Source: a virus. From it: a stretch of 43,258 bases of DNA. The first letter of the stretch is position 1; each line of letters opens with the position of its first letter. The position numbers were made by a program, and so were the translations under genes. The notes beneath the pieces were generated by a model. That model saw only the letters and a list, made by a program, of their open reading frames with translations, was not told the DNA's origin and did not search any database. Location of the stretch: IMG/VR virus record IMGVR_UViG_3300048837_000126, positions 1 through 43,258 of that record; one strand, written 5' to 3'. Shown here piece after piece: positions 2,972-43,258 of this stretch.

Positions 2972-3217
2972 ATGCGTCACAAGACCTACATGGACCTGGC
3001 CGGCAAGATGAAGGCCGAGCCTCGCGACTTCCCCCTTGACGAGATTTACCGGATCGTGTGCCGCCCGCCGCACACGGACGGTCTGTCCACAGACCAGCTT
3101 CACAGCCGCTGCTCCCGTGCTATCGGTGAGGCGCGGGCGGCGCTGAAGAAGGAGGGCTACATCCTTGAGCTTGGCGGCATGCGCCACAGTTATCGGGCCT
3201 CCAAGCGCAAGCGGTGA
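2972..3217 (+). CDS. Winged-helix-like DNA-binding protein (putative)
   Basis: An 81-aa basic protein. Residues about 18-75 (DEIYRIVCRPP, then SRCSRAIGEARAALKKEGY, then GMRHSYR) look like a three-helix plus wing arrangement in which a basic helix is followed by a G-x-x-x-x-Y-R wing; this is a familiar layout of small phage DNA-binding proteins. The ATG at 2972 follows AAGGAG and lies downstream of the promoter at 2920; the in-frame upstream extension would overlap the promoter. Being directly under one of the four operator-promoters, it is a candidate for the protein that binds GCATA-N6-TATGC, but this is inference. Confidence 0.65.
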   Translation: MRHKTYMDLAGKMKAEPRDFPLDEIYRIVCRPPHTDGLSTDQLHSRCSRAIGEARAALKKEGYILELGGMRHSYRASKRKR

Positions 3218-3223
3218 TCGTTG

Positions 3224-5275
3224 ATGACTATCCTCGAAGCAGCGCTGGAGTGGGCGGCGCGCGGGTTCCGCGTGTTCCCGATCCTGCCCGGCGACAAGGT
3301 TCCTCCCAAGGACTTGCGCTGGAAGGAGGAGGCCACCACTGACCCGGCGAAGATCACCGCCTGGTGGACCTTCGAGCCCCGCTACAACTACGGCGTGGCG
3401 GCCGGCGAGGGCACGCTGATCCTCGACGTGGACGCCAGCAAGAACGGCTATGCCGCTCTGCTCGACATCGACCTGCCCCCGACGCTGACGGTCAAGACCC
3501 CCGGCGGTGGCGAGCACCAGTATTTCAGCGGCCCCGATGTCGCAAACTCGGTGGACCGCATCGCGCCAGGTTTGGACATCCGCTCGGCCGGCGGCTACGT
3601 CATCGGCCCCGGCTCGTTCTTCGCCGACCCCGGCGGCAAGAAGGGCTACACCGGCTCCTACCACATTACGAACGACATCCCGCCAGCGGCTGCGCCCGAG
3701 CACTTCGTCCTCGTCGCCGGCACGCCCAAGGAGCGCGAGACCGGCGCGGCCGTCAGCATCGACGATCCCGACGACATCGTGTTCGCGATCCACTACCTCC
3801 AGAAGGACGCGCCGCTCGCGGTCGAGGGCCGAGGCGGCGACAGCACCACCTACGCGGTCGCGGCGCGTGTCGTCGAGATCGGCGTCTCGGCCGAGCGCGC
3901 GGCCGACCTGATGGCCGAGCACTGGAACGAGCGATGCCTGCCGCCCTGGACCAAGGAAGAACTGCTGGTCAAGGCGACGAACGCGCAGAACTATCTCCAG
4001 ACCCGCCAGGGCTCGGGCGGCGTCGCTGCCGCTGCGGCCGACTGGCAAGGCGCGGTGGTGCTGCCGCCCGCCCCGCCGCCTTCCTCGGTCGGGAAGTTCG
4101 GCAAGGTCTTCGCGATCCGCACGCTGACACCGATCGAAGCGATCCCGCCGCGCGACTGGGTCATGCACCGCCTGCTCATGCGGGGCGAGGGCTCGCTGCT
4201 CGCCGGCCCCGGCGGCGTGGGCAAGTCCGGTATCTCGCTGGCACTGGCCGCTCACGGCGCGCTCGGCCGCAGCTTCGCCGGGTTCGCCGTGCCGAAGCCG
4301 TTCAAGACCATCGTGTATAACCTGGAGGACACGCGGCACGAGATGGAAGCCCGCCTCTACGCGGTGTGCGCGGTCTACGACCTGGACCCCCGCGAGGTGG
4401 AGAAGCACGTCCTGCTCTGGCCCGGCCGGGAGATGCGCTTCCGCCTGATGAACCGGGATCACACCTTCGCCATGGCCGACTGCCAAGAGGTGGCGCGCCT
4501 GATGCGGGGCGAGGGCTTCGACGCTATCGTGCTCGACCCGCTGATCTCGCTGCACCACGAGGAGGAGAACGACAACGCGGCGATGGGCGATGTGATGGAC
4601 GCCTTCAACGGGCTGTGCCGCCTCGCCAACGCCGCCGGGCTCGCGCTGCACCACACCCCCAAGGGCGTCCGCAGCGCCGGCTCCAGCGACGCCGTGCGCG
4701 GCGCAGGCAACATCGTCAACGCCGTCCGTATCGCCAGCACCATCTACGCGGCCGACGAGGCTGACGCCGCGCTCTACGGGTTCTCTGAAGGCTACAAGGC
4801 GCGCTACGTCCGCATCGACGACGCGAAGCAGAACCACGCCGCGCTGGAGACGAAGCCCCTGTGGCTGGAGAAGCAGGGCTTCCCGCTGCCCAACGGCGAC
4901 ACGAGCTACGCGATGCGGATGATGGAACCTTCGGCCACCATGGCAGGCGAGGCGAAGTTCATCGCGACGATCCTGGCGGATCACATGAACCGGGCCGGCT
5001 CGATCCATCTCGCGACTTACGACGCGGCGCGCGTGCTCACCTCGGCCGACAACTACTTCAGGGACAAGGTGCCGGCGTCCGGTGATCTGCGGCAGATCAA
5101 GGCGCTTATCGAACTGCGGCTGTCACAGGCGGTGCAGACCGATGCCGGCGAGATCATCCGCGTCGTGCCGAAGACCGAGCCCGGCGCGGCCACGTCGCGG
5201 ATGTTCGTCGAGCTATCCGACGCGCCAAGGCCACAGCCCGCAGAGCCGAGTGCCGTAGATGAGTGGGGCGGTTAA
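3224..5275 (+). CDS. Primase-polymerase / replicative helicase fusion
   Basis: A 683-aa two-domain replication protein. Residues 1-170 match the bifunctional primase-polymerase (Prim-Pol) fold: AARGFRVFP, the metal-binding LDVD (67-70), KTPGGGEHQYF (His about 98) and GLDIRSAGGYVIGPGS. Residues about 310-560 are a RepA/AAA_25 helicase: Walker A GPGGVGKS (about 328-335), Walker B IVLDPLISLH (Asp about 438), LALHHTPKG and a conserved RGAGNIVNAVR. It should prime and unwind DNA at the fork for the family A polymerase. The ATG at 3224 is preferred to a TTG at 3221. The gene is the last of the + strand unit, and its TAA shares bases with the stop of the converging late unit. Confidence 0.93.
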   Translation: MTILEAALEWAARGFRVFPILPGDKVPPKDLRWKEEATTDPAKITAWWTFEPRYNYGVAAGEGTLILDVDASKNGYAALLDIDLPPTLTVKTPGGGEHQYFSGPDVANSVDRIAPGLDIRSAGGYVIGPGSFFADPGGKKGYTGSYHITNDIPPAAAPEHFVLVAGTPKERETGAAVSIDDPDDIVFAIHYLQKDAPLAVEGRGGDSTTYAVAARVVEIGVSAERAADLMAEHWNERCLPPWTKEELLVKATNAQNYLQTRQGSGGVAAAAADWQGAVVLPPAPPPSSVGKFGKVFAIRTLTPIEAIPPRDWVMHRLLMRGEGSLLAGPGGVGKSGISLALAAHGALGRSFAGFAVPKPFKTIVYNLEDTRHEMEARLYAVCAVYDLDPREVEKHVLLWPGREMRFRLMNRDHTFAMADCQEVARLMRGEGFDAIVLDPLISLHHEEENDNAAMGDVMDAFNGLCRLANAAGLALHHTPKGVRSAGSSDAVRGAGNIVNAVRIASTIYAADEADAALYGFSEGYKARYVRIDDAKQNHAALETKPLWLEKQGFPLPNGDTSYAMRMMEPSATMAGEAKFIATILADHMNRAGSIHLATYDAARVLTSADNYFRDKVPASGDLRQIKALIELRLSQAVQTDAGEIIRVVPKTEPGAATSRMFVELSDAPRPQPAEPSAVDEWGG

Positions 5276-12600: not shown

Positions 12601-14040
12601 GGCGCGGGCGGCCACGATCTCGGCGCTCTCGCCCTCGTAGGCTCGCGCCATGCGCTCGGCGAAGTGCCGGCCGATGGTGTCCAGGAACTCGGGCTCGGAC
12701 GACAGCAGCCGGTCGCGATTGTAGACGCGGCTGAAGTAGCTGGCGGCCGTCTTCACGTCCAGGTCGCCTTCCTCCAGGAGCCCGAGCTTCAGGGCATCCT
12801 TCGTGAAGTCATCGAACAGCTTGCGGTAGCCCTGCGCGGCGCGGGCAACGAAGGGGTTTGCATCCTCGTCACCGTTACGCATAGCCCGGCCGACCGCGTT
12901 GTAAAAGTCGTCCTGGCTCATGCGCGTGCCGGCCGAGCGCATCTCCTTGTAGGACGCCTCGGCCGCGCTCATCGCCTCGGCCTGAAGCCCGGTCACGCGC
13001 GTTCGGATCGCGGCCTCGACAGACACGCCGGTCGTATCGCCAGCGGAGTGCATGGCCCGATAGATCGTGCTCTCGTAGAGATTGCCGGCTACCTGCCGAG
13101 CCGATGCCGCATAGCGCTGGGTTGCCCGCAGCACGGGGTTGAACCAGGACGTGGCTTTGGTAGCCGCGCTTGCCGCGACACCCTCCACTGCCAGTTCCTC
13201 GCGGGTGCGAGCCCGCTGAACCGGGTCAACATAGAACGCCCCTTCGGCGACATCCGCGCCGGCTCCAGCAGGAGAGCGATCAGCAAGAACCTGAGCAGGT
13301 ACGAACTCATTCGGCTTGGCCCCCGATTGAATGTCAGAGATGTTCTCCAGCGCGCGCTCGGCGGTGATCCGCGCGTTCTTCCCCAGCACGGCCGCGACGC
13401 CGCCCCCGAGCATGGACCCGAGCACGGCCGCCGCGCCGATGTTGACCAGGCTCTCGGCCCCGGTGCGCGTCTCCTGCGTGGCCTGCAAGAAGCCTTCGGT
13501 GGCGGCCTGCGTCGCTGCGGCCGAAGCGCCGGCCATCAGCATCGACTTGCCCACGGACCAGGTGCCCTTCGCCCCCCGCACCGCCACGGTGCCGGGGATC
13601 AGCGTCGGGGCGTCGAACACGCCGGCCGCGATCTGCGCGAACGTTCCGGTCCAGCCGGACGCCTCCAGCGTCTCTCGGTCACGCTGTTCCATCTGGATTT
13701 GCGAGCGGACGGCGTCGGCGCGCCGGCCGTTCAGCACGCCCATGAAGCTGTTCTCGTAGCCCTGGAGATTGTGCTCCTTGATGTAGGCAACCGGATCGAA
13801 GTTGCCGTCATCCGAGTTATCCACGCCCGTGTCCTTGCGCGACAGCAGGGAGCCAATGGTGTTGTCCTGCCGGAACGCCGCCGCGACCGTCGAACGCTGC
13901 GCGATCTCCTGCGCCTTCGCGATGGTCTCGGGCGTGTCGTAGCCGGCGAGCGTCGGGCTCGTCGGCTTCTTGGCGTAGTCCATGAACAGCCCGGCCGGGC
14001 CGGCTTCAGCGTCCAGTTCGTCGAAAGTCTTGAAGGTCAC
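9694..14040 (-). CDS. Large internal virion protein (gp16-like)
   Basis: A 1448-aa protein, the largest in the genome. The N-terminal 250 residues contain amphipathic segments (SMLMAGASAAATQAATEGF, SLVNIGAAAVLGSML) typical of ejected internal core proteins that insert in the envelope; residues about 430-870 are long charged helices and coiled coils. There is no transglycosylase motif here; that domain is in the upstream neighbour. Size, order (last of three internal proteins, before the fibre) and composition match T7 gp16, which builds the trans-envelope channel. The ATG overlaps the previous stop (ATGA). Confidence 0.82.
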   Translation of the reverse strand: MTFKTFDELDAEAGPAGLFMDYAKKPTSPTLAGYDTPETIAKAQEIAQRSTVAAAFRQDNTIGSLLSRKDTGVDNSDDGNFDPVAYIKEHNLQGYENSFMGVLNGRRADAVRSQIQMEQRDRETLEASGWTGTFAQIAAGVFDAPTLIPGTVAVRGAKGTWSVGKSMLMAGASAAATQAATEGFLQATQETRTGAESLVNIGAAAVLGSMLGGGVAAVLGKNARITAERALENISDIQSGAKPNEFVPAQVLADRSPAGAGADVAEGAFYVDPVQRARTREELAVEGVAASAATKATSWFNPVLRATQRYAASARQVAGNLYESTIYRAMHSAGDTTGVSVEAAIRTRVTGLQAEAMSAAEASYKEMRSAGTRMSQDDFYNAVGRAMRNGDEDANPFVARAAQGYRKLFDDFTKDALKLGLLEEGDLDVKTAASYFSRVYNRDRLLSSEPEFLDTIGRHFAERMARAYEGESAEIVAARAKYRQRSEDIGLSGAERSKRIDEIGAEGKALDARHAHLEDLIDDLSEARGRVRDAVDEQAKATARAEVKRLMDQGGDELKNYLTERANLRGRMRNLTAVNPDAQSARYERISQRIDDAQETAKRAVLSSGKRIKNIMNRLATDPVGQAESALGDALKEADRIQKALAASDRRLAALEKASEGGDQPEGLAQFWQQRRAEQEAARATAQSLIDELEKLSVQGINADDLRAALAPAASKTPEQQAAGAAKRKGQRESQLLAQGEKVTQGEFGVIDAEQLVQTLTKLLDDVTAQAGERSIRRGEAVGKMKERAAKLAPDEVKARAEAQRGQFARVLEAVENRFDGKWGPRRALGLEKGEAYDFEAAGRATAKEIYDKITGKVQQRDDLPAFITKITSGPLKDRTFMVPDELLQGKGWLKDDVREVANRYARSMAGEIELTRRFGKADMSDQLAQIAQEYSDLRVAVDQAATIDDLNAVLGRKKFGSKADLAKAKLEAQQALAQDESSAITDTKAGRDLIRGTYGQGVNNSNFASISRSLMHFNYLRQMGGVLLANITDFYRPAMVHGLGPYLRTMPQALAQAFDAGSGGFKASLKEAKLAGLVSERVTHSLMAANGDIADPFLTRTTQVERFMQKATGLASRWNFINLFTDAQQAIASSVSQHRVLEAILGNGGKDGSFVKGDGTRLLRMLGVDEQTQGDIARLFGKYGETVDDIRVANTERWLTERGTPEEIARNENAVRVYRAAINTDVNSIVSRRGIGDAPLFANHPVGKMLTQFSGYAMGAHSRVMIRGLQESHARLVGGLAALTALGAMTSYLAAWRGGAERWKKYTEETAKNPMLLIGEGLDRSGFFPVLFDIANRAERVSGAVGYDYRFNPVKSPIAMLGGQGGVGITSTRASDSAAAFGALLGPTAGMIDSAVAIGRVSADKARGKTPPKHDVNQAIAALPFQSYYGMREMLQVLTGNSNYTRR

Positions 14041-16799
14041 GGCACGATCCCGATGTCGCGGAGCCGGAACTGGCTCTCAATCTGCTTAAACAGCATAGCC
14101 TCATCCGCTGTGTTGATGTTAGGCGCGTCGGTCGGATTGACCTGCCGCTTACGCTCGGCCGCCTGCGCGTCGCGAAGCCGCTGGTTCGCCTTCTCCCTGG
14201 CCGCGCGCTCCTTCTGCGCCGGGGTGTCGAGCAGACTGCTCTGGTGGGCTGGCACCTCGAAGGGGATGCCGAACTGGTCATAGCCGGTGAAGGGCTGCGC
14301 GTTTTTGTCGGCGATGGCCTTGTTCTTCTCCCCGACATAGGTGTCCACGTCGGGGAAGAACGCGCCGTTCAGAATGTGCACGTCCTGCTCGGGCGTCTTC
14401 GGCACGACCATGATCTGGTAGGGCACGGACTGGTAGCTCGTCTCCTGGCCCGGCTTGCTATCCCGGCGCTTCACCGACATCGGCTGGCCGTCGAAGCCGG
14501 CGCGCGTGCTGACGCCGTCGCGCTCGACCGGGAGCAGCACGATCTGGTCGGGCTCGACCACGATGCCGAGGTTGTCCTTGACCGTCTTCGCCGCCTGCTC
14601 GTTGATCCAGCCGTAGCCGTCGCTGCCGACGCCCGCGATCTTGGGAAGCCCGGCCTTGCTCGGCGGATAGCGGGTGATGACGCCGTTCTGCGTGCCGAAC
14701 TGCTTCTGGAACTGCATGTCCGCATAGGCCAGGGCGGCGTCAGGATCGCGGTGCTTCTCGAAACCCTCGGTCGCGAAGGACGCATAGATCGACGAGATCG
14801 CCGTGCGCTGCTGGCCGGTCGGCAACTGCGCGCTGAAGGGCGCGTCGCTGAAGGGGTTCCAGGACGAGAAGTTCGACTGGAGCCGCTTGTCGATCTGCTC
14901 CTGCGTCAAGCTCTGCTTCTTGAACTGCTGAAGCTGCTCCTGCTTCACCGGGTTCAGCTTCTCGGGATCGCGGGCGTCCTTCATGATCCGGTCGGCCGCC
15001 TGCTCCGTCGAGAGCCCGAGCCCTTCGGTCAGCCGGCGATATTCGCCAGCGGACTTCTCCAGATCGGTGCCGCCTTCGACGCCGGCAAAGGCGTTCGGGT
15101 TCTGGCGCATCATGTTGGCCGCCGTGAGCAGCCCGGCCGCGACCTTGGCCCGATCTTCCGAGATCAGCGCGCCACGCATCGCCGTGGCAAACGACTGCGG
15201 AACCACGCCGGTCTTGTCGAACACGCTTGCCGCGAGCGCAGCCGGATCGCCGCCGGCCTTGACGCCACGGTCATAGTAGGCGCTGACGCCGTCGCGGTGA
15301 TCCTTGTTGTAGGGGTTCGCCACGGCGCGCCCGCCCTGCATCAGAGACAGGCCGGTCGCGTAGTCGCCCTCGTCCTTGAAGCGCTGCTTGATGATGTTCT
15401 CGGCCTTCGAGATTTGATCGAAGTCCGTCAGCAAGCCGTTGCGCCGCGCGTCCGCATAAGCGGCCTGCGGGGCGGTGCCCTCCTTCAGGTCGATGTAGAG
15501 CGCGTTCCGCTTGGCCTCCATGGCTTCCTGCGCCGCCTGCGTCGCCTGCGCCGCCTGCTGGATCAGCGAGCGCTGCGCCGTCTCGGTGACGGCCGCATTC
15601 TGCTGCGGCGTCAGGTTGCTCCCGGCGGCGCTCGGGGCGGCCGTCGTGCCGCTCCCGTTGAACTTGCGGGTCAGCAGCCCGTAGACTTCGGACACCGTGC
15701 GGGGCTCGTTGCGTGCGAAGAAGATGCTGCGGTTAGCCGCTGCCTCCTTCGGGAACAGCGTCGCGGCCGAAGCGCCAGCGTCAGATTGCAGGGCGCGCAA
15801 GAAGTTCGTGCCGCCGGTCTGCCCCATGAAGTGGAGCATGTAGAGATTGGCGTCCGTGACCGGAAGCTTCTCGGCCGTAAGCTTCGCCGTCGAGGCCGCG
15901 ATATACTGGTCCAGCACCTTCTCCTGAAGGTCTGGATTGTTGCGCGGGTCGCTCGGGGTGTTCTTGTTCTCCTCCGTTACAGGCGGCGCGCCCGCCTTGC
16001 CGGCGAAGGCGTTCCAGGTATCGGTCAGGAACTGGTAACGGCCGCGAGCGCTGCTGGAACTATTCTTCGCCGTGTCGTCGCCGCCGCTCTCCTTGCCGCG
16101 CAGCGCCGCGCGAAAGCCGCCGCCGACCTGTGACGCGATGACGCCGGCCGGGTCTTTCTGCGCCCGCGCGCTCTCCGCGACATAGGCGAGCGAGTTCTTC
16201 GCCTCGGCCTTCAGGCGCTCCTTCTCGACCGCCGGCAGCGTGGACTTGTCGATCAGGTCGATCTGCTGCTGCGCGAACTGCTCATAGGTCAACGGGTTGT
16301 TCTGAACCTGGAGCCCGGCCTTCCGCTGCTCCTCGGAAAGCACCTGCTTCGTGTTCGTGTCCTGCTGCGTATACTGGTCCTTGAACGCCGACGCGGTGCG
16401 GGCGGCCGTGAACCGGGCGGCCTTGGCTTGGTACTCGGCCCGAGCGCCTTCCGGCAGGTTCTTCAGCCATTCGTCGAAGCGCGTGGCGGTCGCGGTACGA
16501 GCGCCCTGCCACCAGCCTTCGCCGTTGCCGGCGAGCCCCGTGCGCTGGCGCTGCTCGTAGTCGGTGTTGTCGGCCTCCTGGAGCTTGACGAACTGCTCCT
16601 CGTAGCCGAACTCCTGGACCTTCTTGGCGTTGGCCTGGACCTTGGCCGCCAGCCCGCCGAGCGCGTCCCCGAGGCCGCTTATCGCGGTGGCTTCCTGCCC
16701 GCCGAACGACGCCGACGTAGCCTTCTCGACCTGATACTGACCGGACGGCAACTCGTTCCGGTTGCCCATGGACATGATATCGACGGGAAGACGGACCAT
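14037..16799 (-). CDS. Internal virion protein with lytic transglycosylase domain (gp15-like)
   Basis: A 920-aa internal core protein. Residues about 225-385 look like a soluble lytic transglycosylase/lysozyme-like fold: LRGKESGGDD (catalytic Glu about 237), GRYQFLTDTWNAFAG and LYMLHFMGQTGG. It would cut murein during DNA ejection. The rest is helical and Gln/Ala-rich. In T7 this activity sits in gp16, so here it has been assigned to the middle internal protein. The start at 16799 lies three bases after the preceding gene; a later in-frame ATG (residue 11) is possible. Confidence 0.82.
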   Translation of the reverse strand: MVRLPVDIMSMGNRNELPSGQYQVEKATSASFGGQEATAISGLGDALGGLAAKVQANAKKVQEFGYEEQFVKLQEADNTDYEQRQRTGLAGNGEGWWQGARTATATRFDEWLKNLPEGARAEYQAKAARFTAARTASAFKDQYTQQDTNTKQVLSEEQRKAGLQVQNNPLTYEQFAQQQIDLIDKSTLPAVEKERLKAEAKNSLAYVAESARAQKDPAGVIASQVGGGFRAALRGKESGGDDTAKNSSSSARGRYQFLTDTWNAFAGKAGAPPVTEENKNTPSDPRNNPDLQEKVLDQYIAASTAKLTAEKLPVTDANLYMLHFMGQTGGTNFLRALQSDAGASAATLFPKEAAANRSIFFARNEPRTVSEVYGLLTRKFNGSGTTAAPSAAGSNLTPQQNAAVTETAQRSLIQQAAQATQAAQEAMEAKRNALYIDLKEGTAPQAAYADARRNGLLTDFDQISKAENIIKQRFKDEGDYATGLSLMQGGRAVANPYNKDHRDGVSAYYDRGVKAGGDPAALAASVFDKTGVVPQSFATAMRGALISEDRAKVAAGLLTAANMMRQNPNAFAGVEGGTDLEKSAGEYRRLTEGLGLSTEQAADRIMKDARDPEKLNPVKQEQLQQFKKQSLTQEQIDKRLQSNFSSWNPFSDAPFSAQLPTGQQRTAISSIYASFATEGFEKHRDPDAALAYADMQFQKQFGTQNGVITRYPPSKAGLPKIAGVGSDGYGWINEQAAKTVKDNLGIVVEPDQIVLLPVERDGVSTRAGFDGQPMSVKRRDSKPGQETSYQSVPYQIMVVPKTPEQDVHILNGAFFPDVDTYVGEKNKAIADKNAQPFTGYDQFGIPFEVPAHQSSLLDTPAQKERAAREKANQRLRDAQAAERKRQVNPTDAPNINTADEAMLFKQIESQFRLRDIGIVP

Positions 16800-27482: not shown

Positions 27483-28940
27483 CTAGAGCTTCACTTCGCC
27501 TGTTCCGGCAGCTACCACAATGGGGGGCCTGTAGTCACCTCCCCACGAGACACGACGGTTCATGGTTCGCCCAAATCTGCGCCCCATCATCGCGTAGCGG
27601 CTCGCCGATATCAAGTCGTCCGCCAGTTTGACGAGCACGCCGTCCTTGCGATGGTAGATGTTGAACTCCTCAAACCACATCGTGCAGGTGCTGAAGACTT
27701 TCCAGCGGCCCTCGTTCATTCGGGTCAGCATGTCCATGATGCCGGCTTCGACACCGACCGAGCCGTCCTCGAATGTGACGTGGCTCTCGTGCATGCTCAG
27801 GCCCGCTGCCCGGTACTGCTTCGCCAACTGGAGCCCCGAGCCCTTGTCGGTCTGGTTGCCGTCGTGAGGCCAGACCCACGGCAGGCGAGCGCCCCACTGC
27901 TTCAGGGTCGCGCCGTGCACCAGCGGGGTCTGCTTGCGCTCGCGGTACTCGCGGGTCAGGTAAAGCGTGTCGGTGTCGCGGTCCCAGGCGAGTTCGACGG
28001 CGGCGAAGGGATGATCCCAGCCAAAGTCCATGCCGCCAATACGCGCCCAGTGATCGGGTATGTGGATCGGGTCGATCTTGATCCGGTCCTCCCCAATGTT
28101 AAAGACACGTCCAGAGCCGAGAACGGGTATGCCTTTGGTTCGCGCATCGCGAGTAGCGTCATCGTATGACGCAATAATTCGGGCTTTCTGTGCATCGCTA
28201 TAGTGCCCCACGTCTTCGATGGTCATCTGAACCACGACGCGGTCGTTGCCGGGGTTCTGGAAGAACTTCATCACGACTTGCGACATGCCCTTCAGCGGCG
28301 TGAAGGTGATGTAGACCATGCCATCGGTCGCGTTGGTTCGGGTGACGGCTTCCTCGTAAACGTCGTAGGGCGGCTCCTCGTCGAGCCAGACGCCGTCCAC
28401 GGTGCTCGCCTGCCACTTCGCACGGCCCTGGTCGAAACTCTTGAACTGGAGCACCGACTGGCCGCCTTGGACGTGGTTGACCACGACCGCGTCGATGGCG
28501 TCCTTCACGCCGGCCCGGCGCTTCGGCTGCTGCGCGATGCACTCGCGCGGGATCAGCCCCGTTCCCCATAGCTCCTCAATCGACGGCGGCCCGACGAGCA
28601 GGCGCTGCATGCCGTCGCGGGTTAGCTCGCCGGACTCAGAGCCCGCCAGCCAGGCGGTCGGCCGCGACCACATCCGGCCTTTCCAGCCGGGCGGATACCG
28701 GCCGGTCAGGTGGAAGGCGAGCTCGGCCGCGCCCGAGTAGGTCTTGCCCAACTGGTTGCCGGCCGAGAACAGTCGCTCGCGGTAGCGGGAGCCTAGCTCG
28801 TGGAAGTACGCCTGCTTCGGATAGGGCCGATAGTCGGACAGCTTCGCGAACTTGGTCTGCTCCTGCTTCGCGGCATTGACCCGCTGCACGAGCGCCTGAA
28901 GCTCGTCGTCCGACAGGCTCTTGAGTTGGTCGATGTTCAT
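27483..28940 (-). CDS. Terminase large subunit
   Basis: A 485-aa packaging motor. ATPase: Walker A AGNQLGKT (about 60-67), Walker B VWLDEEP (Asp187, Glu188), then TFTPLKGMS as coupling motif. Nuclease: GGMDFGWDHP (Asp about 305), WPHDG and DDLISASRYAM near the C-terminus supply the RNase H-like acidic residues. It cuts and pumps DNA into the procapsid through the portal. The ATG at 28940 overlaps the preceding TGA; longer upstream frames are shadows. Stretches at about 28085-28210 and 27483-27600 are noticeably lower in GC than the rest of the gene. Confidence 0.94.
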   Translation of the reverse strand: MNIDQLKSLSDDELQALVQRVNAAKQEQTKFAKLSDYRPYPKQAYFHELGSRYRERLFSAGNQLGKTYSGAAELAFHLTGRYPPGWKGRMWSRPTAWLAGSESGELTRDGMQRLLVGPPSIEELWGTGLIPRECIAQQPKRRAGVKDAIDAVVVNHVQGGQSVLQFKSFDQGRAKWQASTVDGVWLDEEPPYDVYEEAVTRTNATDGMVYITFTPLKGMSQVVMKFFQNPGNDRVVVQMTIEDVGHYSDAQKARIIASYDDATRDARTKGIPVLGSGRVFNIGEDRIKIDPIHIPDHWARIGGMDFGWDHPFAAVELAWDRDTDTLYLTREYRERKQTPLVHGATLKQWGARLPWVWPHDGNQTDKGSGLQLAKQYRAAGLSMHESHVTFEDGSVGVEAGIMDMLTRMNEGRWKVFSTCTMWFEEFNIYHRKDGVLVKLADDLISASRYAMMGRRFGRTMNRRVSWGGDYRPPIVVAAGTGEVKL

Positions 28941-29377
28941 CAGCCGTTCGCGATCTTGGCGTAGCCGCCGATGTCGTCCCAGTGGTCGGGGAAGCTCGCG
29001 TCGCCGGCCATGATCCGTCCCATCTTGTGGCAGATCATCTCCAGGCTTTCCTTCTGCCTCTCCGTCAGGTCGGGCTGGCCGCGCTCGCGGCGTGCGTGGG
29101 CGGCTCGCTGGAGCACGCCCTTCAGTTCCTGTGCCACCCCGGCGTTGTCCACCCAGGCCCCGTGCGTCTTGCCGCGAGCGGCCACGAGCGCAGCGGTCTC
29201 GTCCTGATGCGCCGCCTCCATCGTGGCGAGCGCTTCCCGCGCCAACTGTTCGGCGTGTGCCTGGTTCTTCGGCAGAACAATGCGCTCTACCTGCCCCCCG
29301 CGCCCGAGCCACAGGACTTCGGAAGCCCCTTCGGTCTCCTGCGTTGCGTAGTTTATTGCTCCTGGTCGAAGGTCCAT
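28940..29377 (-). CDS. Protein with DUF6378-like C-terminal domain, 145 aa
   Basis: The C-terminal 40 residues (ESLEMICHKMGRIMAGD, then HWDDIGGYAKIANG) match a short domain seen in many phage proteins that I know as DUF6378; its function is unknown. The N-terminal two thirds are helical with a basic patch (RAAHARRERGQPD). Directly upstream of terminase and overlapping its start (TGATG). Being in the terminase operon it could influence packaging, but nothing in the sequence proves it. Confidence 0.68.
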   Translation of the reverse strand: MDLRPGAINYATQETEGASEVLWLGRGGQVERIVLPKNQAHAEQLAREALATMEAAHQDETAALVAARGKTHGAWVDNAGVAQELKGVLQRAAHARRERGQPDLTERQKESLEMICHKMGRIMAGDASFPDHWDDIGGYAKIANG

Positions 29378-29380
29378 GGC

Positions 29381-29896
29381 TCAGTTCCACTCGATATGTT
29401 CGGGGGTGATGATCCGAGGCGTGTTGTCGGGCACCTCCAGATCGGCCATGAGCATAATCGGATGCTCGCGGTGCGGCTTATGGATGCCGACCTTCGTGGC
29501 CTCGTTGACGGCCCCGAGCATAGCGTTCCAAGCGGCAGCGAACTCGACCTTATAGGCCGGCGAGCCCTCGGGCAGTTCGGGCATGCGGCCATGGCCGACC
29601 CCCATCCAGCCGACGATCCGGTTCACGTCCTGGCCTTCCTCGCGCATGTAGGCGATGTTCGCGGCCATGAAGCGCTCCAGCGCCTCCTCCAGCCCATGCT
29701 TGACCTTCAGGTCGGACGTGACGCTGGCGATCAGCGCGGTCAACTCGTGCAGGTTTCCGGTGCGCAGGCGACGCACGATCTCGCGCGCCTTGGCGGCGTC
29801 GGCCGAGAAAGTCGCTTCCTTGCGGTCGGCCGCGTCGAGCTTGCGCCCCTCGGGCCGGCGGTTCGCCGCCTGGTTCTGCTTCAGGACATCACTCAT
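29381..29896 (-). CDS. Hypothetical protein upstream of terminase, 171 aa
   Basis: A mainly helical protein with a charged N-terminus (LDAADRKEATFSADAAKAREIVRRL cannot be cut into known domains) and a C-terminal PHREHPIMLMADLEVPDNTP. No small terminase subunit is otherwise identified; this gene and its upstream neighbours are the positional candidates, but I see no clear HTH and leave the function open. It overlaps the preceding gene by eight bases. Confidence 0.6.
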   Translation of the reverse strand: MSDVLKQNQAANRRPEGRKLDAADRKEATFSADAAKAREIVRRLRTGNLHELTALIASVTSDLKVKHGLEEALERFMAANIAYMREEGQDVNRIVGWMGVGHGRMPELPEGSPAYKVEFAAAWNAMLGAVNEATKVGIHKPHREHPIMLMADLEVPDNTPRIITPEHIEWN

Positions 29897-31676: not shown

Positions 31677-31723
31677 GACTACCTCCACAATAGGCGGGCG
31701 CTCTAACCGCTGAGCTACCGGAA
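31677..31723 (-). pseudogene. tRNA-like segment C (5' half of a tRNA)
   Basis: On the - strand: TA, D-stem GCTC, loop AGCGGTTA, GAGC, then an anticodon-like arm with CGCCT and AGGTA around ATTGTGG. Everything after the anticodon arm is missing; the gene at 31676 starts three bases on. The D-arm is perfect. No T-arm or acceptor. Confidence 0.55.
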
Positions 31724-31732
31724 GGCGTTACC

Positions 31733-31799
31733 CTACCAGGCGGGATTTGAACCCGCGTCTCCCGTTCGGTGCGCTCTACCAGACTGAGCTACCCGCGGC
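31733..31799 (-). pseudogene. tRNA-like segment B (D-arm and T-arm, shortened anticodon arm)
   Basis: On the - strand: D-arm GCTC-AGTCTGGTA-GAGC (31789-31773), then only 15 bases, then T-arm GCGGG-TTCAAAT-CCCGC (31756-31740). A normal tRNA has about 22 bases there, and the acceptor arms (CCGCGGG and CTGGTAG) do not pair. Degenerate rather than functional in translation. Confidence 0.6.
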
Positions 31800-31807
31800 C
31801 GCTGACG

Positions 31808-31870
31808 GTCACAGGGTCGGATTTGAACCGACGACCTTCACCCGATGCGCAAATGGCCATGGGCGCTCGG
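31808..31870 (-). pseudogene. tRNA-like segment A (3' half of a tRNA)
   Basis: On the - strand a perfect T-arm GTCGG-TTCAAAT-CCGAC (31832-31816) preceded by GGTGAAGGTC and followed by CCTGTGACC; no matching 5' acceptor or D-arm upstream. It follows the CTTGACA box at 31880. Confidence 0.55.
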
Positions 31871-31880
31871 CCTTGTCAAG
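31851..31880 (-). promoter_or_regulatory. Candidate late-unit promoter
   Basis: CTTGACA on the - strand (31880-31874) with a poor -10 (CCATTT, 31856-31851) after 17 bp. The -35 is perfect, the -10 is weak, so a phage activator or an extended context may be needed. It would start the late transcript within tRNA-like segment A. Confidence 0.4.
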
Positions 31881-31938
31881 AGGCAGGCGTCGCGACGTAT
31901 CACCGGCCGGGCTGGACACTGGATCACCGACGCACGCT

Positions 31939-32297
31939 GAACAGAAGTTTACAGGTTGCGGCAGTATCGCCGGAACAAAAGTTCGCTGTACCGTGCTGGA
32001 ACAGAAGTTTGCTGGTTCGCCGGTTAAAGGGGTCGATCTCTGAAAGCGTATGTTCGCTAGGTCGGCAGTCCGACCGAATAGCTGAAAACAAAAGTTAGCA
32101 GGGTCAGATGTCCCGGAAAATTGCGTGTGTCGCCCCGCGCCGCGCGATGCAAACGAGTTGGGGGCTCCCCCGGCCTCGAAGTTGGCAGGCTGCAAACTTC
32201 AGTTTTCGCATCAAATCGGCAATGCGCGCGGTTCGGCCAAGCCGCTAAGTCATTGATATGGTTAGGCAATTGCCTGCTAACAATAGTTCGCTAGGTC
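31939..32297 (+). repeat. Iteron/operator array, six copies of GAACARAAGTT-type repeat
   Basis: Direct repeats of about 20 bp at 31939, 31973, 31999, 32044, 32086 and 32278. Cores: GAACAGAAGTTT, GAACAAAAGTTC, GAACAGAAGTTT, AAGCGTATGTTC, AAACAAAAGTTA, TAACAATAGTTC, most followed by GCTGGTTC-, GCTAGGTC- or GCAGGGTC-like sequence. The core is a dyad GAAC-N4-GTTC, perfect in the second copy. Spacing is 34, 26, 45, 42 and 192 bp. An inverted copy occurs at 33199-33209. Confidence 0.65.
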
Positions 32298-32320
32298 GCG
32301 GTTAGGTGGCTCGCTGAAGT

Positions 32321-32345
32321 GCTGACTTAGGCCCGGCAAGTCAGC
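32321..32345. repeat. Perfect 8-bp inverted repeat
   Basis: GCTGACTT (32321-32328) and AAGTCAGC (32338-32345) separated by nine bases. No T-run on either side, so a binding site or structured origin element is more likely than a terminator. Confidence 0.55.
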
Positions 32346-32537
32346 AACTCGACCGCTGCGCTTGTGCACGTCACAACGACCCTGCCTTAACCTAAGACTA
32401 GGCGCTTCAGCGCTCCAGCCTAAGCAGCGAACCGCCAACGGATCGGCTGTAACACTCGACCCACAGCGACACCGTAGCGCAAGGCGAGCGCTGGCAACGC
32501 CTAGCGCTTATCCCTAGACGCTAGGATGTCGCATAAC

Positions 32538-32561
32538 CCGGCAAATAGCCGGATTTGCCGG
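32538..32561. repeat. Perfect 9-bp inverted repeat near the early promoter
   Basis: CCGGCAAAT (32538-32546) and ATTTGCCGG (32553-32561) with a 6-base loop AGCCGG, ending one base before the candidate -35 box at 32563. Suited to be an operator. Confidence 0.55.
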
Positions 32562-32562
32562 C

Positions 32563-32591
32563 TTGCCTTATACGGGAATTGGATGCTAAAC
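32563..32591 (+). promoter_or_regulatory. Candidate promoter of the early unit
   Basis: TTGCCT (32563-32568), 17-bp spacer, CTAAAC (32586-32591), 55 bases before the first early gene. Match to consensus is moderate only. Confidence 0.4.
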
Positions 32592-32625
32592 CGACCTACC
32601 ATAACGGCTACGTCTAATACCTAGG

Positions 32626-32637
32626 GAAACAGGAGTT
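32626..32637 (+). promoter_or_regulatory. Leader box with ribosome site, copy 1
   Basis: GAAACAGGAGTT, followed by AGCAGCAC and the ATG at 32646. The AGGAG is the Shine-Dalgarno. The same box precedes the genes at 33282 and 33661, and it resembles the iteron core with continuing GTTAGCAG. Confidence 0.6.
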
Positions 32638-32645
32638 AGCAGCAC

Positions 32646-33197
32646 ATGCCCGCATTCAAGCCCGCTCATGAGTTAGCAGACATCCCCGCTCGCGTGCTCG
32701 ACCTATTCACAGTCGAGAATGGCGAATTGCATTGGTCTCCGGTTTGTCCCGCGTCATGGCGCGGCATGGTGCGTGCGCCATGGGGCTCGCGAGCCGGCGG
32801 CAAGCCAGTGTATGGGCGCGGCCGTCTTATCAACGCCAAGCGGATGAACCTGCTAACTGTCGATGTCGCCTACGCGCTGGAGCACGGTGGCGAATGGCCA
32901 TGGCAAATCAACGCCGGGCTTATCCCCGCCGATGCGCGCGACCTGGACAACGCGAACCACTGGCGCGACCTGATCCGCGCGCGGTTCGCTTTGGACGGCG
33001 AAGCGCTGACCTGGCGCGTTGATCGCGGGTTCAATGCCGATAGGACCGTGCGCTATCCGGCCGGCTCGCGCGTCGGCGGCTTGGCCATGTCAGGCTTTCG
33101 CGAGCCAATCGTCGCGACTGGCGGCATGACGTTTCTCGCATCGGACGTGCGCGCCGTGCTGCAAACCGGCTGCTTCCCGTGGAATGAGTGGAATTGA
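32646..33197 (+). CDS. HNH-related DNA-binding protein with duplicated domain, probably non-catalytic
   Basis: A 183-aa protein. Residues about 15-80 (LDLFTVENGELHWSP up to ALEHGGEWPW) look like the DNA-recognition segment that precedes HNH motifs in phage endonucleases, which has L-x-Y-x-x-x-x-G-x-L-x-W and ends in G-x-W-P. DARDLDNANHWRDL (about 96-109) resembles the D-x-x-x-D-N-R-x-x-N-L part of an HNH but the leading D-H is missing. Residues 110-180 repeat the first pattern (FALDGEALTWRVDRG up to TGCFPW). So it is a duplication with the nuclease lost. First gene of the early unit; it could bind DNA as a regulator. Family assignment is by eye. Confidence 0.6.
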   Translation: MPAFKPAHELADIPARVLDLFTVENGELHWSPVCPASWRGMVRAPWGSRAGGKPVYGRGRLINAKRMNLLTVDVAYALEHGGEWPWQINAGLIPADARDLDNANHWRDLIRARFALDGEALTWRVDRGFNADRTVRYPAGSRVGGLAMSGFREPIVATGGMTFLASDVRAVLQTGCFPWNEWN

Positions 33198-33198
33198 A

Positions 33199-33209
33199 AA
33201 CTTTTGTTC
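33199..33209 (-). repeat. Inverted copy of the GAACAAAAGTT box
   Basis: The + strand reads AACTTTTGTTC, the exact reverse complement of the core at 31973. It lies ten bases before the TTGACA promoter of the next gene. Confidence 0.6.
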
Positions 33210-33218
33210 GCAACCCGC

Positions 33219-33247
33219 TTGACACGCGGTTCGCCTAGGCTTAGGTA
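33219..33247 (+). promoter_or_regulatory. Early promoter before the 102-aa gene
   Basis: TTGACA (33219-33224; CTTGACA), 17-bp spacer, TAGGTA (33242-33247), 35 bases before the ATG at 33282. Confidence 0.6.
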
Positions 33248-33263
33248 TAGGACATCAACCACG

Positions 33264-33275
33264 CAAACAGGAGTT
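33264..33275 (+). promoter_or_regulatory. Leader box with ribosome site, copy 2
   Basis: CAAACAGGAGTT before the ATG at 33282; see the copies at 32626 and 33643. Confidence 0.55.
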
Positions 33276-33281
33276 CACGAC

Positions 33282-33590
33282 ATGCCCGGCCACAGCTACC
33301 ACGTCGAATGGACTGACACTTTCGCGGGCGAAGCCAACTATTCATGGGTTCGCCGCGCTGACATCACCGTGCCTGAGCTTGTGCATTACGGTTACACGGG
33401 CTCGACCGATGGCTCTTATCGCGCCGCGTGCAAGCGGCAACAGCGCGAGATCATGCGCAAAGCCAAGGCGGCCATTGGCATCACGGGCCTTCGCGGCGTC
33501 ACTGAAGACACGGGCGAAGGCTTCACGTTCCGGCCGTATCGCATGTGCTGCATTCTGTTTGTCACATGGCAGGATCAGCCGGAAGCCTGA
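33282..33590 (+). CDS. Small early protein, 102 aa, conserved type
   Basis: Begins with YHVEWTDTFAGEANYSWVRR, a sequence type I recall from small proteins on alphaproteobacterial plasmids and phages, followed by a basic helix (RAACKRQQREIMRKAKAAIG) and a beta end (GFTFRPYRMCCILFVTW). Function unknown. It has its own TTGACA promoter and the leader box CAAACAGGAGTT. The ATG at 33282 is downstream of the promoter, so in-frame codons further upstream are excluded. The stop is followed by a trailer shared with two other early genes. Confidence 0.7.
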   Translation: MPGHSYHVEWTDTFAGEANYSWVRRADITVPELVHYGYTGSTDGSYRAACKRQQREIMRKAKAAIGITGLRGVTEDTGEGFTFRPYRMCCILFVTWQDQPEA

Positions 33591-33640
33591 CGTTTCGACC
33601 TTGCCGCCCTTTGGGGCGGTAATCCGAAGCGCCACGCTTC
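33588..33640 (+). repeat. Shared intergenic trailer, copy 1
   Basis: TGACGTTTCGACCTTGCCG, hairpin CCGCCC/GGGCGG (33604-33619), then AGCGCCACGCTTCAGC. Homologous modules lie at about 34108-34170 and 34648-34692. Confidence 0.55.
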
Positions 33641-33642
33641 AG

Positions 33643-33654
33643 CAAACAGGAGTT
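33643..33654 (+). promoter_or_regulatory. Leader box with ribosome site, copy 3
   Basis: CAAACAGGAGTT, then GGCACC and the ATG at 33661. Confidence 0.55.
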
Positions 33655-33660
33655 GGCACC

Positions 33661-34104
33661 ATGTCGAAAACCTTTGACGCGCACCTAGCCGCCATCCGGT
33701 CAGGCGAGATCACGAAAACAAATGTTATCGGGCTGCGGAAGGCCCTGACCGCGCTGAACAAGCGCGAAGCGGGCTGGAGTGTCAGCCGCACGCAAGTCAA
33801 GGTCACGGCGCGCGATCTCGACACCGCATGCGATGAACTCGACCGGGTCAAGCCGCGCGTGGTCGGCGAGCTTCACGACACAGGGCTAGCGCAGCTTCAG
33901 GCGAAGCGCTACCGCCGGCAGCTTGCGAGCGTTGCCGAGATCGTCGCGGGCATCGCATCATTCCACCTTGTCGGCTTTGAGCTAGTCGGAAGCCGGCAGC
34001 TATACGCCACGCCGCTTTACGAGGCCCGCGACGCGGAAGGCCGCGCGTTCCGGTTCATCAACATCCCGTGGCAGAACGGCGGCAACGGCCCTGAGATCGT
34101 CTAG
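33661..34104 (+). CDS. Hypothetical early protein, 147 aa
   Basis: No family recognised. N-terminal helical part (LAAIRSGEITKTNVIGLRKAL) and a central SRTQVKVTARDLDTACDELD, C-terminal YATPLYEARDAEGRAF then RFINIPWQNGG. The ATG at 33661 has AGGAG at 33648-33652 in the shared leader box; the frame is open further upstream but that part would overlap the previous gene. Soluble, slightly basic. The short repeated-helix N-terminus may bind nucleic acid; no direct support. Confidence 0.65.
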   Translation: MSKTFDAHLAAIRSGEITKTNVIGLRKALTALNKREAGWSVSRTQVKVTARDLDTACDELDRVKPRVVGELHDTGLAQLQAKRYRRQLASVAEIVAGIASFHLVGFELVGSRQLYATPLYEARDAEGRAFRFINIPWQNGGNGPEIV

Positions 34105-34745: not shown

Positions 34746-35828
34746 ATGTTCAGCTTCAAGGAAACCGCCGAGAAGGCCGCAGCCGAGTTCGGGCTGTCGA
34801 TGAAGGACGACCCGACCTTGTGGCCCGAGGGCTCGACCCCGACGCTCGCGGTCGTGACGAAGGCGTGCAACGACACCGCCATCGAATGCGCCCGGTCGGC
34901 CATGTCGCGCGGGCTCGGCAAGATCGCCGAGACGGTCGCGACCGAGTTCGATGTCGCAATCGCCGAGGACGGCCCGCTGGCCGACTTGGAGACCGTCCTG
35001 AACGAGCACCTATACGACGGGCCGGACATCGACCTGTCGGCCGTCCTGGCGGCTCCTGACTGGCAGGCCCGCGTCGAGGCGACCCGTGAAGCCTTCGGCG
35101 TCGCGGTCCAGAGCTACGACGTGCCGGCGCGCTCGGCCGAGGAAGTGGCCCTCTATGTCGAACTCGACCCGCGCCTGTCGAAGCTCGGGATCGTGTCCGG
35201 CAGCAAGCCCGACGTGCCGCAGTCGCTGCTCGTGAACCAGGGCGGCGACGAATGGGACGAGCCGGACGCCGAGGTGAAAGACGAGCCCGACGCGGTCGAT
35301 CCGTGGGCCGACGAACAGGCTGACAAACTGGACCGCATCGTCAACCCCGGCGGTGTCCTGCCCCCGGCTCGCGAGCGCGGCAAGCCGTCGCCGGGCAAGG
35401 CCCGCCGGACCAAGGCCGAGATCGCCGAGGACGAGGCGGCTGACCGCGCTGACCAGGCTGCGGCGTTCAAGGACGCCGTCGAAGGTCCGGCCGAGGCCGA
35501 GACTACCGCCTGGGATGACGAGCCCGCCAGCGAGGCCCCTGCGCCTGCCCTGGACGCCGGCTGGGATGATGCCGAGCCGGCCGCGACCGCTGCAAACCTG
35601 CCGGGGCTCGCGAGCGCGGCCGGGATCGCTGATGGCGAGATGGCGGCCCTGCTCGGCATGTCCAAGGGCTACTACTCGCAGGTCCGCAACGGCAAGCGCC
35701 CGTGGCCCGGCCTGAAGCCCGATCAGGTGCAGCGCCTGCGTGCTGAACTCGCGGGCCGCCGGGAAGCCATCGACGCCGTCGAGGCCGCCCTGTCCACCGC
35801 CGATGTCCTGAAGCCCGAAGGCGCGTAA
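34746..35828 (+). CDS. Acidic protein with C-terminal helix-turn-helix, 360 aa
   Basis: N-terminal 150 residues are helical and acidic with no known domain (FKETAEKAAAEFGLSMKDDP). Residues 170-290 are a low-complexity acidic/Ala linker with repeated W-D-D-E patches. The C-terminal 70 residues carry an XRE-like HTH: GEMAALLGMSKGYYSQVRNG, then KRPWPGLKPDQVQRL. It can therefore be a DNA-binding regulator or a replication-related organiser. It is the first gene under operator-promoter copy 3, hence a candidate autoregulator of the GCATA-N6-TATGC sites. ATG 34746 follows CGGAG; the earlier in-frame codons overlap the promoter. Its stop overlaps the RusA start (TAATG). Confidence 0.7.
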   Translation: MFSFKETAEKAAAEFGLSMKDDPTLWPEGSTPTLAVVTKACNDTAIECARSAMSRGLGKIAETVATEFDVAIAEDGPLADLETVLNEHLYDGPDIDLSAVLAAPDWQARVEATREAFGVAVQSYDVPARSAEEVALYVELDPRLSKLGIVSGSKPDVPQSLLVNQGGDEWDEPDAEVKDEPDAVDPWADEQADKLDRIVNPGGVLPPARERGKPSPGKARRTKAEIAEDEAADRADQAAAFKDAVEGPAEAETTAWDDEPASEAPAPALDAGWDDAEPAATAANLPGLASAAGIADGEMAALLGMSKGYYSQVRNGKRPWPGLKPDQVQRLRAELAGRREAIDAVEAALSTADVLKPEGA

Positions 35829-42301: not shown

Positions 42302-42598
42302 ATGAAACACGCCCGCAAGGACTACAACGAGATCACCACGAACGGCCGCACCCGCAAAATCCCGAAAGACGAGCCGGTGTTCCTGCTTCGCGCGCAGGAC
42401 GCGGTGGCCGCCAACACCGTCCGCTTTTGGGCGGCTGCTGCCGCGACCGCTGGCGCTGCGCCTGACATCGTCGAGGCGGCCCGCAAGCATGCCGACCTGA
42501 TGGAGGCATGGCCGACGAAGAAGATACCGGACATGCCCGAGGGCGCGGCCGAGGAAGCCGAGACCGACACCCACGACGGCAAAGGTCCGGTGGCCTGA
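42302..42598 (+). CDS. Conserved phage protein near DNA polymerase, 98 aa
   Basis: The start KHARKDYNEITTNGRTRKIP followed by DEPVFLLRAQDAVAANTVRF is a pattern I associate with short conserved proteins in tailed phage replication regions; the function is unknown. The tail is acidic. It lies between the SSB terminator and the Acb2-like gene, in a small group with the polymerase. ATG follows GAGGAGCGCG. Confidence 0.7.
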   Translation: MKHARKDYNEITTNGRTRKIPKDEPVFLLRAQDAVAANTVRFWAAAAATAGAAPDIVEAARKHADLMEAWPTKKIPDMPEGAAEEAETDTHDGKGPVA

Positions 42599-42626: not shown

Positions 42627-42857
42627 ATGACGAATAAAGGCTTGCCCGTCGCGGGCTATCGCGACCAGAGCAACGACGCGGTAGCGCTCGTGAACGGCAA
42701 CAAGATTATCGAGGAGCAGGCGCTGCGCATCCTCGACGACTTGGCGGCTCGTGACGATGTTGATAAGCGCTGGCTCGCCATCGGCCGCACTGCAATCGAG
42801 CAGGGGTTCATGGCGGTCAACCGCTCGATCTTCAAGCCCGAGCGCGTGAAGCTCTGA
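42627..42857 (+). CDS. acb2: Acb2/Tad1-family cyclic-nucleotide sponge (anti-CBASS)
   Basis: A 76-aa protein with the hallmarks of the Acb2 family: VAGYRDQSNDAVALVN near the N-terminus, a helical middle, and the C-terminal signature DKRWLAIGRTAIEQGFMAV (residues about 47-65). Tyr11 and Lys26 fall at the positions that I recall as ligand contacts in Acb2 of Pseudomonas phage PaMx33. Proteins of this family form hexamers that bind cyclic di- and trinucleotides and so block CBASS, and some related ones block Thoeris. CAACAGGAG precedes the ATG; its stop overlaps the polymerase start (TGATG). Family membership is by sequence recognition; binding is inferred. Confidence 0.82.
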   Translation: MTNKGLPVAGYRDQSNDAVALVNGNKIIEEQALRILDDLAARDDVDKRWLAIGRTAIEQGFMAVNRSIFKPERVKL

Positions 42858-43258
42858 TGCCTAAGCTCCATTTGGATTTTGAAACGCGGTCGGCCGTCAA
42901 CCTGAAGACCTGCGGGGCCATGCGATACGCCATGGACCCGACGACAGCGGTGTTGTGGGCCTGCTGGTGCATCGAAGACGAGTGGGGCGGAGGCACCGTG
43001 AAGCGCTGGCGACGGGGCGACCCGCCGCCGCGCGAACTGATCGACGCGATTGCCTCGGGTATGACCGTCGTGGCCCACAACGCGATGTTCGAACTCGCCA
43101 TCTGGCACTTCGTGTGCGCCGCCCGCATGGGGTGGAGCCCGATGTCGCCGCACCAGATGGACTGCACCATGGCGCGGGCTCACGTCATGTCGCTGCTCGG
43201 TTCGCTCGACGGCGTGACCACGCTGTTGCGGCTGAAGAACCGGAAGAACCCCGCCGGC
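42857..43258 (+). CDS. Family A DNA polymerase, N-terminal part (continues at 1)
   Basis: The start of the polymerase whose remainder is at 1-1880. It encodes the 3'-5' exonuclease domain: Exo I is LDFETRS (Asp and Glu about residues 6-8) and Exo II is AHNAMFELAIW, in which the usual Asp is a Glu, as in several phage polymerases with this domain. The ATG overlaps the acb2 stop (TGATG). Codons from 43133 to the end are duplicated at 3-128 by the contig overlap. Confidence 0.95.
   Translation, partial: MPKLHLDFETRSAVNLKTCGAMRYAMDPTTAVLWACWCIEDEWGGGTVKRWRRGDPPPRELIDAIASGMTVVAHNAMFELAIWHFVCAARMGWSPMSPHQMDCTMARAHVMSLLGSLDGVTTLLRLKNRKNPAG
43131..43258. repeat. Contig terminal redundancy (right copy)
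   Basis: Identical to 1-128 except at the second base (G here, C at position 2). It lies inside the polymerase gene and keeps the frame, so it is an assembly overlap of a circular or circularly permuted genome rather than a biological direct repeat. Confidence 0.85.

Follow-up and report, generated by a model that had tools for sequence, protein, structure and literature searches.

Control regions in which related protein-binding sites lie between divergent transcription units are well known in phages. In the Cro/C1 switches, of which lambda OL/OR is an example, such operators lie between divergent promoters and are accompanied by a phage protein of the HTH_3 type. Iteron origins that use IHF, such as those of iteron plasmids and of the P1/P4 type, combine same-strand repeats with AT-rich DNA and an IHF site. 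An endonuclease of a phage can also serve as a regulator, as is the case with the I-TevI autorepressor of phage T4 (PMC2988022). The literature that we searched holds nothing on the control regions of HTVC010P-type phages, and a region of this kind is undescribed there for the group of podoviruses considered here. We describe such a region in an uncultivated virus (IMG/VR record IMGVR_UViG_3300048837_000126), the whole 43,258-nucleotide stretch of which is called the window below.

Results

The genome and its relatives

The recurrence of bases 3-128 at 43133-43258 marks the window as the complete circular genome of a podovirus. Its minus strand carries the late genes (TerL at 27483-29390, portal, capsid, tail, internal virion proteins and endolysin) and its plus strand the early and replication genes, which encode RusA-like and HNH proteins, an SNF2-type helicase, a PD-DEXK exonuclease, a gp2.5-like SSB, PolA and a Prim-Pol/AAA_25 primase-helicase (3221-5275). 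The nearest relatives at the protein level are phages of Rhizobium and Pelagibacter, with a Caulobacter phage for the DNA of gene 2, and an alphaproteobacterial host is therefore likely. The major capsid protein is 33-40% identical to those of the HTVC010P-type podoviruses HTVC010P and MW202898, and TerL, which resembles the P22-like terminases, is up to 59% identical to that of Rhizobium phages; however, these records show no match at the DNA level and no counterpart of the control region was found in them. The 30-43 kb stretch likewise has no DNA-level relatives among deposited phages. Relatives were gathered by searches with the helicase and gene 1 and by scanning for the pattern of the GC-rich block described below, and those with the same region are L001, L003, L005, L007, L107, L027, L030 and L006, with L004 contributing P2 only.

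Two side observations were made elsewhere in these genomes. The product of a small gene at 42627-42857 (+) contains the Acb2/Tad1 hairpin domain (PF24729, 2.2e-16), whose family is known to sequester cyclic-nucleotide defence signals. Early reading frames in L005 (7524-8120) and L027 (reverse strand, about 13965-14551) consist of alanine-rich tandem repeats that read AYDEAMATARR... and AEYEKACAPAL....

A conserved array of asymmetric sites

Between the leftward late and rightward early units lie six copies of a repeat, all on the plus strand, which in 24-bp frames span 31938-32300 (Table 1). A reading made from the sequence alone had described six copies of GAAC-N4-GTT(C/T), five of them spaced at 26-45 bp with a sixth further on, in AT-rich DNA between divergent units. 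The repeats are real and their setting is as described: the copies start 34, 26, 45, 42 and then 192 bp apart, and 31939-32297 has a GC content of 54.0%, the genome one of 65.5%, with 0.6% of segments of equal length being as AT-rich. However, the strict core fits only three array copies (at 31939, 31973 and 31999), together with an inverted site at 33198; copies 4-6 read AGCGTATGTTC, AAACAAAAGTTA and TAACAATAGTTC. The inverted copy before 33219, which had been called exact, does fit the pattern (GAACAAAAGTTT at 33198-33209, minus strand) but differs at one base from the nearest array copy, and a further inverted copy is present at 32183-32206 (-).

Table 1. Positions in the window of the array, its associated sites, the proposed promoters and the genes of the candidate binding proteins.
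Feature	Coordinates	Strand	Sequence	Remarks
Proposed -35 of leftward late promoter P_left	31874-31879	-	TTGACA	conserved in relatives
Array copy 1	31938-31961	+	TGAACAGAAGTTTACAGGTTGCGG	19.6 bits, relatives-only matrix
Array copy 2	31972-31995	+	GGAACAAAAGTTCGCTGTACCGTG	23.4 bits, relatives-only matrix
Array copy 3	31998-32021	+	GGAACAGAAGTTTGCTGGTTCGCC	23.8 bits, relatives-only matrix
Array copy 4	32043-32066	+	AAAGCGTATGTTCGCTAGGTCGGC	degenerate left half; 10.0 bits, alone within chance range
Array copy 5	32085-32108	+	AAAACAAAAGTTAGCAGGGTCAGA	28.7 bits; fixed distance from conserved block
Near-invariant block	32111-32175	.	CCCGGAAAA...CCCGCGC...GTTGGGGGCTCCCCC	pattern scan and alignment
Inverted copy	32183-32206	-	AAAACTGAAGTTTGCAGCCTGCCA	15.5 bits; kept in L001 and L003
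IHF consensus site	32246-32258	-	TATCAATGACTTA	exact match to consensus WATCAANNNNTTR
Array copy 6	32277-32300	+	CTAACAATAGTTCGCTAGGTCGCG	25.1 bits
Gene 1 (first early gene)	32646-33197	+		duplicated beta-hairpin/helix protein; rival candidate binder; syntenic in nine genomes
P2 operator	33187-33210	-	CGAACAAAAGTTTTCAATTCCACT	25.1 bits; overlaps gene 1 stop codon
Proposed promoter P2	33219-33247	+	TTGACA, 17 bp, TAGGTA	conserved -35
HTH protein (360 aa)	34746-35828	+		C-terminal Cro/C1-type HTH (match 35634-35699); preferred candidate binder

The strict pattern is a poor guide to these sites. It has six matches in the window, which is barely above chance (4 of 100 shuffles reach six), and the six include one palindrome counted on both strands and one match (33265-33276, minus strand) that is the complement of a Shine-Dalgarno leader. 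The looser AAC-N4-GTT greatly exceeds chance: it occurs 12 times, and 11 of these matches fall within 31940-33717, with up to six in 400 bp; the best clusters in 200 simulated genomes averaged 1.1 and reached 3 at most, and a local-composition control gave a mean of 0.35 and a maximum of 3 where 11 were observed. Three of the 11 clustered matches lie in Shine-Dalgarno leaders (AACAGGAGTT at 32628, 33266 and 33645) and need not be operators; the presence of the motif in three early leaders may be a coincidence of the leader that they share.

Pooled frequencies yield a better consensus, about RAACAN-WAGTTYRCWRGTTCG, in which the core RAAC-N4-GTTY is symmetric and a conserved 3' extension, about RCWRGTTCG, makes the whole asymmetric. 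The scan matrix was built from 21 copies in L001, L003, L005, L007, L107 and L027 only, the window being excluded to guard against circularity. Its seven best sites in the window (32085+, 33187-, 32277+, 31998+, 31972+, 31938+ and 32183-; 15.5-28.7 bits) include none outside the control region and P2; the best sites in 60 simulated genomes averaged 12.7 bits, the largest being 19.5. Copy 4 is assigned to the array by its position and its right half.

The sequence-only reading had named absence of the repeats from close relatives as one possible refutation; copies do occur at the matching place in six of them (L001, L003, L005, L007, L107 and L027). In leave-one-out scans of L001, L003, L005, L007 and L107, nearly all matches that exceeded 15 bits lay either in the control region or at P2. 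Copy 5 can be aligned in the window, L003, L005, L007, L107 and L027. Copy number and spacing drift (26-45 bp in the first five copies of the window, about 33 bp in L005 and 41 bp in L107) and the DNA between the copies cannot be aligned among relatives; thus, the sites themselves are what is kept. The left half of the motif differs in L027, and in L006, which retains part of the conserved block, no copies can be recognised in the control region. The array is a genuine, evolutionarily conserved set of putative protein-binding sites. Individual genomes show features of their own in this region: an inserted HNH-type reading frame (about 3070-3540) splits the array of L001 and contains a strong operator-like copy (3274-3297, minus strand, 28 bits), and the equivalent regions of L030 and L006 have their own repeats, TGTTAC-N6-CTAACA in the former and 12-bp repeats in the latter.

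The resemblance of the core to the LexA box of Gram-positive bacteria had suggested that host LexA might read these sites and so link the phage to DNA damage. One of the six copies does contain an exact GAAC-N4-GTTC (31973-31984). The Bacillus LexA box, CGAAC-N4-GTTCG, is symmetric and occurs nowhere in the window; the array motif is longer and asymmetric, its conserved 3' extension has no place in a LexA box, and its left half varies among relatives. In alphaproteobacteria the LexA box is GTTC-N7-GTTC (PMC3091678). A search of the window for GTTC-N7-GTTC/GAAC-N7-GAAC returned a single match at 28935, inside the TerL gene, and none at the array. With the alphaproteobacterial box absent from the region and the exact GAAC-N4-GTTC present once only, we rejected the LexA reading as extremely unlikely, which also removes what had been a speculative tie between the phage and the SOS response of its host. 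Other known motifs were also set aside. CtrA boxes (TTAA-N7-TTAA) gave no match in the scan, even with one mismatch allowed, and promoters for a T7-type RNA polymerase were dropped, the motif not being found upstream of other genes. The search for RNA_pol matches found none in this podovirus group and was also silent in control genomes, which makes it uninformative.

A near-invariant block and an IHF consensus site

A GC-rich block, CCCGAAAA...CCCGCGC...GTTTGGGGGCTCCCC, anchors the last array copy; its near-invariant element is GGGGGCTCCCC, with G5-CT-C5 at 32160-32171. The block is near-invariant in the window, L001, L003, L005, L007, L107 and L030 and is recognisable in L027 and L006. A structured RNA in the block received no support, the covariation term of the consensus fold being +0.22 with pairs that are mostly unvarying, and the Rfam scan detected only tRNA-like elements, all outside the block. 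The IHF site is the only exact match to its consensus in the 43 kb window, where 0.12 would be expected, and its 14-mer TAAGTCATTGATWT is conserved in L001, L003, L005, L007 and L107. It adjoins copy 6, preceding it in the window, L001 and L003 and following the corresponding copy in L005, L007 and L107; therefore the pair is kept and its order is not.

Repeats, an IHF site and a near-invariant GC-rich block together also recall a packaging site (pac/cos), at which the terminase would recognise the repeats and G5-CT-C5 with the help of IHF, as in lambda cosB. In L109, a low-GC, distant podovirus, the 17-mer GTTTGGGGGCTCCCC is found at 1242-1258 (-), just upstream of a small-terminase-like gene, but by our estimate this could be chance for a collection of this size. 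Similarity places the terminase with the P22-like, headful type, for which pac lies inside the small-terminase gene, and packaging would give the P2 copy no role. We regard this explanation as very unlikely.

An origin of replication, which the sequence-only reading had offered beside a master operator, has more in its favour. The repeats would be initiator iterons, IHF and the AT-rich stretch would aid melting and the Prim-Pol/AAA_25 protein would be loaded there. Six same-strand repeats in DNA that is AT-rich for this genome, the IHF site and the conserved block adjoining the anchored copy are consistent with this, and genes for a primase-helicase, a PolA-type polymerase and an SSB are present in the phage itself. 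A dimeric repressor would not require all six copies to lie on the same strand, an orientation more typical of iterons. Against this, the cumulative GC skew that had been proposed as a check has no minimum at the array (raw minimum at 42497, detrended minimum at 18668) and the window contains no DnaA box (TTWTNCACA), although phage origins require neither. The spacing in the window is irregular, there is no recognisable initiator gene, and the P2 site, 1 kb away and adjacent to coding sequence, suits an operator better. Thus, of the two functions first proposed, the operator is the better supported, by the divergent units and the P2 site; an origin is unlikely, and a dual role as operator and origin is possible.

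Proposed promoters and the putative operator at P2

Conservation of their -35 elements leads us to propose two promoters, neither of which passes a sigma-70 consensus scan of the window. The TTGACA of P_left is found at the matching place in L001, L003, L005, L007 and L107, its -10 being weak in the window (CCATTT). This -35 is about 58 bp from the nearest array copy (copy 1) and simple occlusion of P_left by the copies is therefore unlikely. The -35 of P2 is conserved in the window, L001, L003, L004, L005, L007, L030 and L006. In leave-one-out scans, counterparts of the P2 operator scored 15.6 bits in L001, 24.6 in L003 and 23.9 in L027, and a weak one was found in L030. The site lies upstream of the -35 in the window, L001 and L003, over it in L005, in the spacer in L027 and at the -10 in L030, where the score is weak. 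Because the site shifts in this way relative to the promoter, its placement would be easier to reconcile with repression than with activation.

A short way downstream of the proposed P_left, 31697-31836 (-) contains degenerate tandem tRNA-like elements. Rfam places a tRNA at 31732-31798 (33.5 bits) and, below its threshold, two YrlA-like matches; ARAGORN detects no tRNA, and the corresponding stretch of L001 and of L003 showed no such elements.

Candidate binding proteins

The genome has a single HTH_3 match (E 5.7e-4, which is below the Pfam cut-off), and it lies in the HTH protein encoded in the early unit. Transcriptional-regulator PHROGs were matched by six of seven homologues of this protein; its profile and model resemble C.BclI, HipB and SinR weakly, with structural matches at E >1, and its N-terminal domain is helical. 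Its HTH is 64-79% identical to that of the window in L001, L003, L004, L005 and L007 and 30% identical in L006. The array is present in L001, L003, L005 and L007, the L004 record covers the P2 end only, and L006 is without the array, so that this co-variation of motif and HTH has one negative genome, L006, the L027 record ending before the HTH gene.

The product of gene 1 is the other candidate. Its AlphaFold2 model (pLDDT 88, pTM 0.85) consists of two beta-hairpin/helix repeats, for which the best viral matches are phage HNH and homing endonucleases, with TM-scores that are low over the full length (0.3). A fold search of solved structures gave no useful match, no histidine or nuclease residue is invariant across the homologues, and no relatives were found in bacterial genomes. 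The protein might descend from an HNH homing endonuclease, of which it would keep a duplicated accessory domain without the nuclease, and act as an autoregulator that reads the same operator array. Sites flank its gene on both sides, the gene is syntenic in all nine genomes, a two-domain monomer would account for an asymmetric site, and I-TevI provides a precedent. However, DNA binding by this protein is conjectural, and it has diverged as much in the motif-bearing L005 and L007 (28-29% identity to the window) as in the motif-less L006 (35%). We therefore prefer the HTH protein, whose similarity tracks the presence of the motif better than does that of gene 1, given one negative genome, and we judge gene 1 rather unlikely to be the binder. 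The fuller proposal, in which this nuclease-free domain is the master regulator of the podovirus family and reads a family-specific asymmetric array with IHF so as to coordinate early and late transcription with the start of replication, is distinctly unlikely.

Discussion

Our analysis points to the divergent region as the probable site of transcriptional control in a family of uncultivated podoviruses, with repeated sites between divergent units, a site at a proposed regulated promoter and a phage-encoded HTH_3 regulator, the match for which is below the Pfam cut-off. Our favoured explanation, which we hold tentatively, is that a phage-encoded DNA-binding protein acting at an operator array controls divergent transcription, the HTH protein being the likeliest binder and IHF bending the DNA. 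The targets of this protein would be the same-strand array close to the leftward late promoter, solitary sites towards the early side and a site at P2, and a host IHF-type protein may bend the DNA by copy 6 so that the sites act together. As the HTH protein accumulated (its gene belongs to the early unit and lies about 2.6 kb further downstream), it would shut off P2 and its own expression and in this way might set the timing of early versus late transcription.

With this region, the site consensus and two named candidates for the binder, the timing of early and late genes becomes testable in this podovirus group, and the motif offers a signature by which control regions may be located in uncultivated relatives.

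Comparison with known systems places the locus among several of them. It has the same-strand repeats, AT-richness and IHF site of iteron origins and differs from them in its irregular spacing, in lacking a DnaA box or skew signal and in having one promoter site 1 kb away. As with I-TevI (PMC2988022), a first early product that resembles an accessory domain of HNH endonucleases is flanked by sites, but here there are many sites as opposed to one, gene 1 has no conserved nuclease residues and its binding is only proposed. From the Cro/C1 switches the window differs in that its sites are same-strand and asymmetric and its candidate regulator is large (360 aa), has an uncharacterised helical N-terminal domain and is encoded 2.6 kb away in the replication cluster; no integrase was found in the genome, so this is not evidently a lysogeny switch. 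What it shares with lambda OL/OR is a set of related operator-like sites between proposed divergent promoters and a phage protein of the HTH_3 type that may read them.
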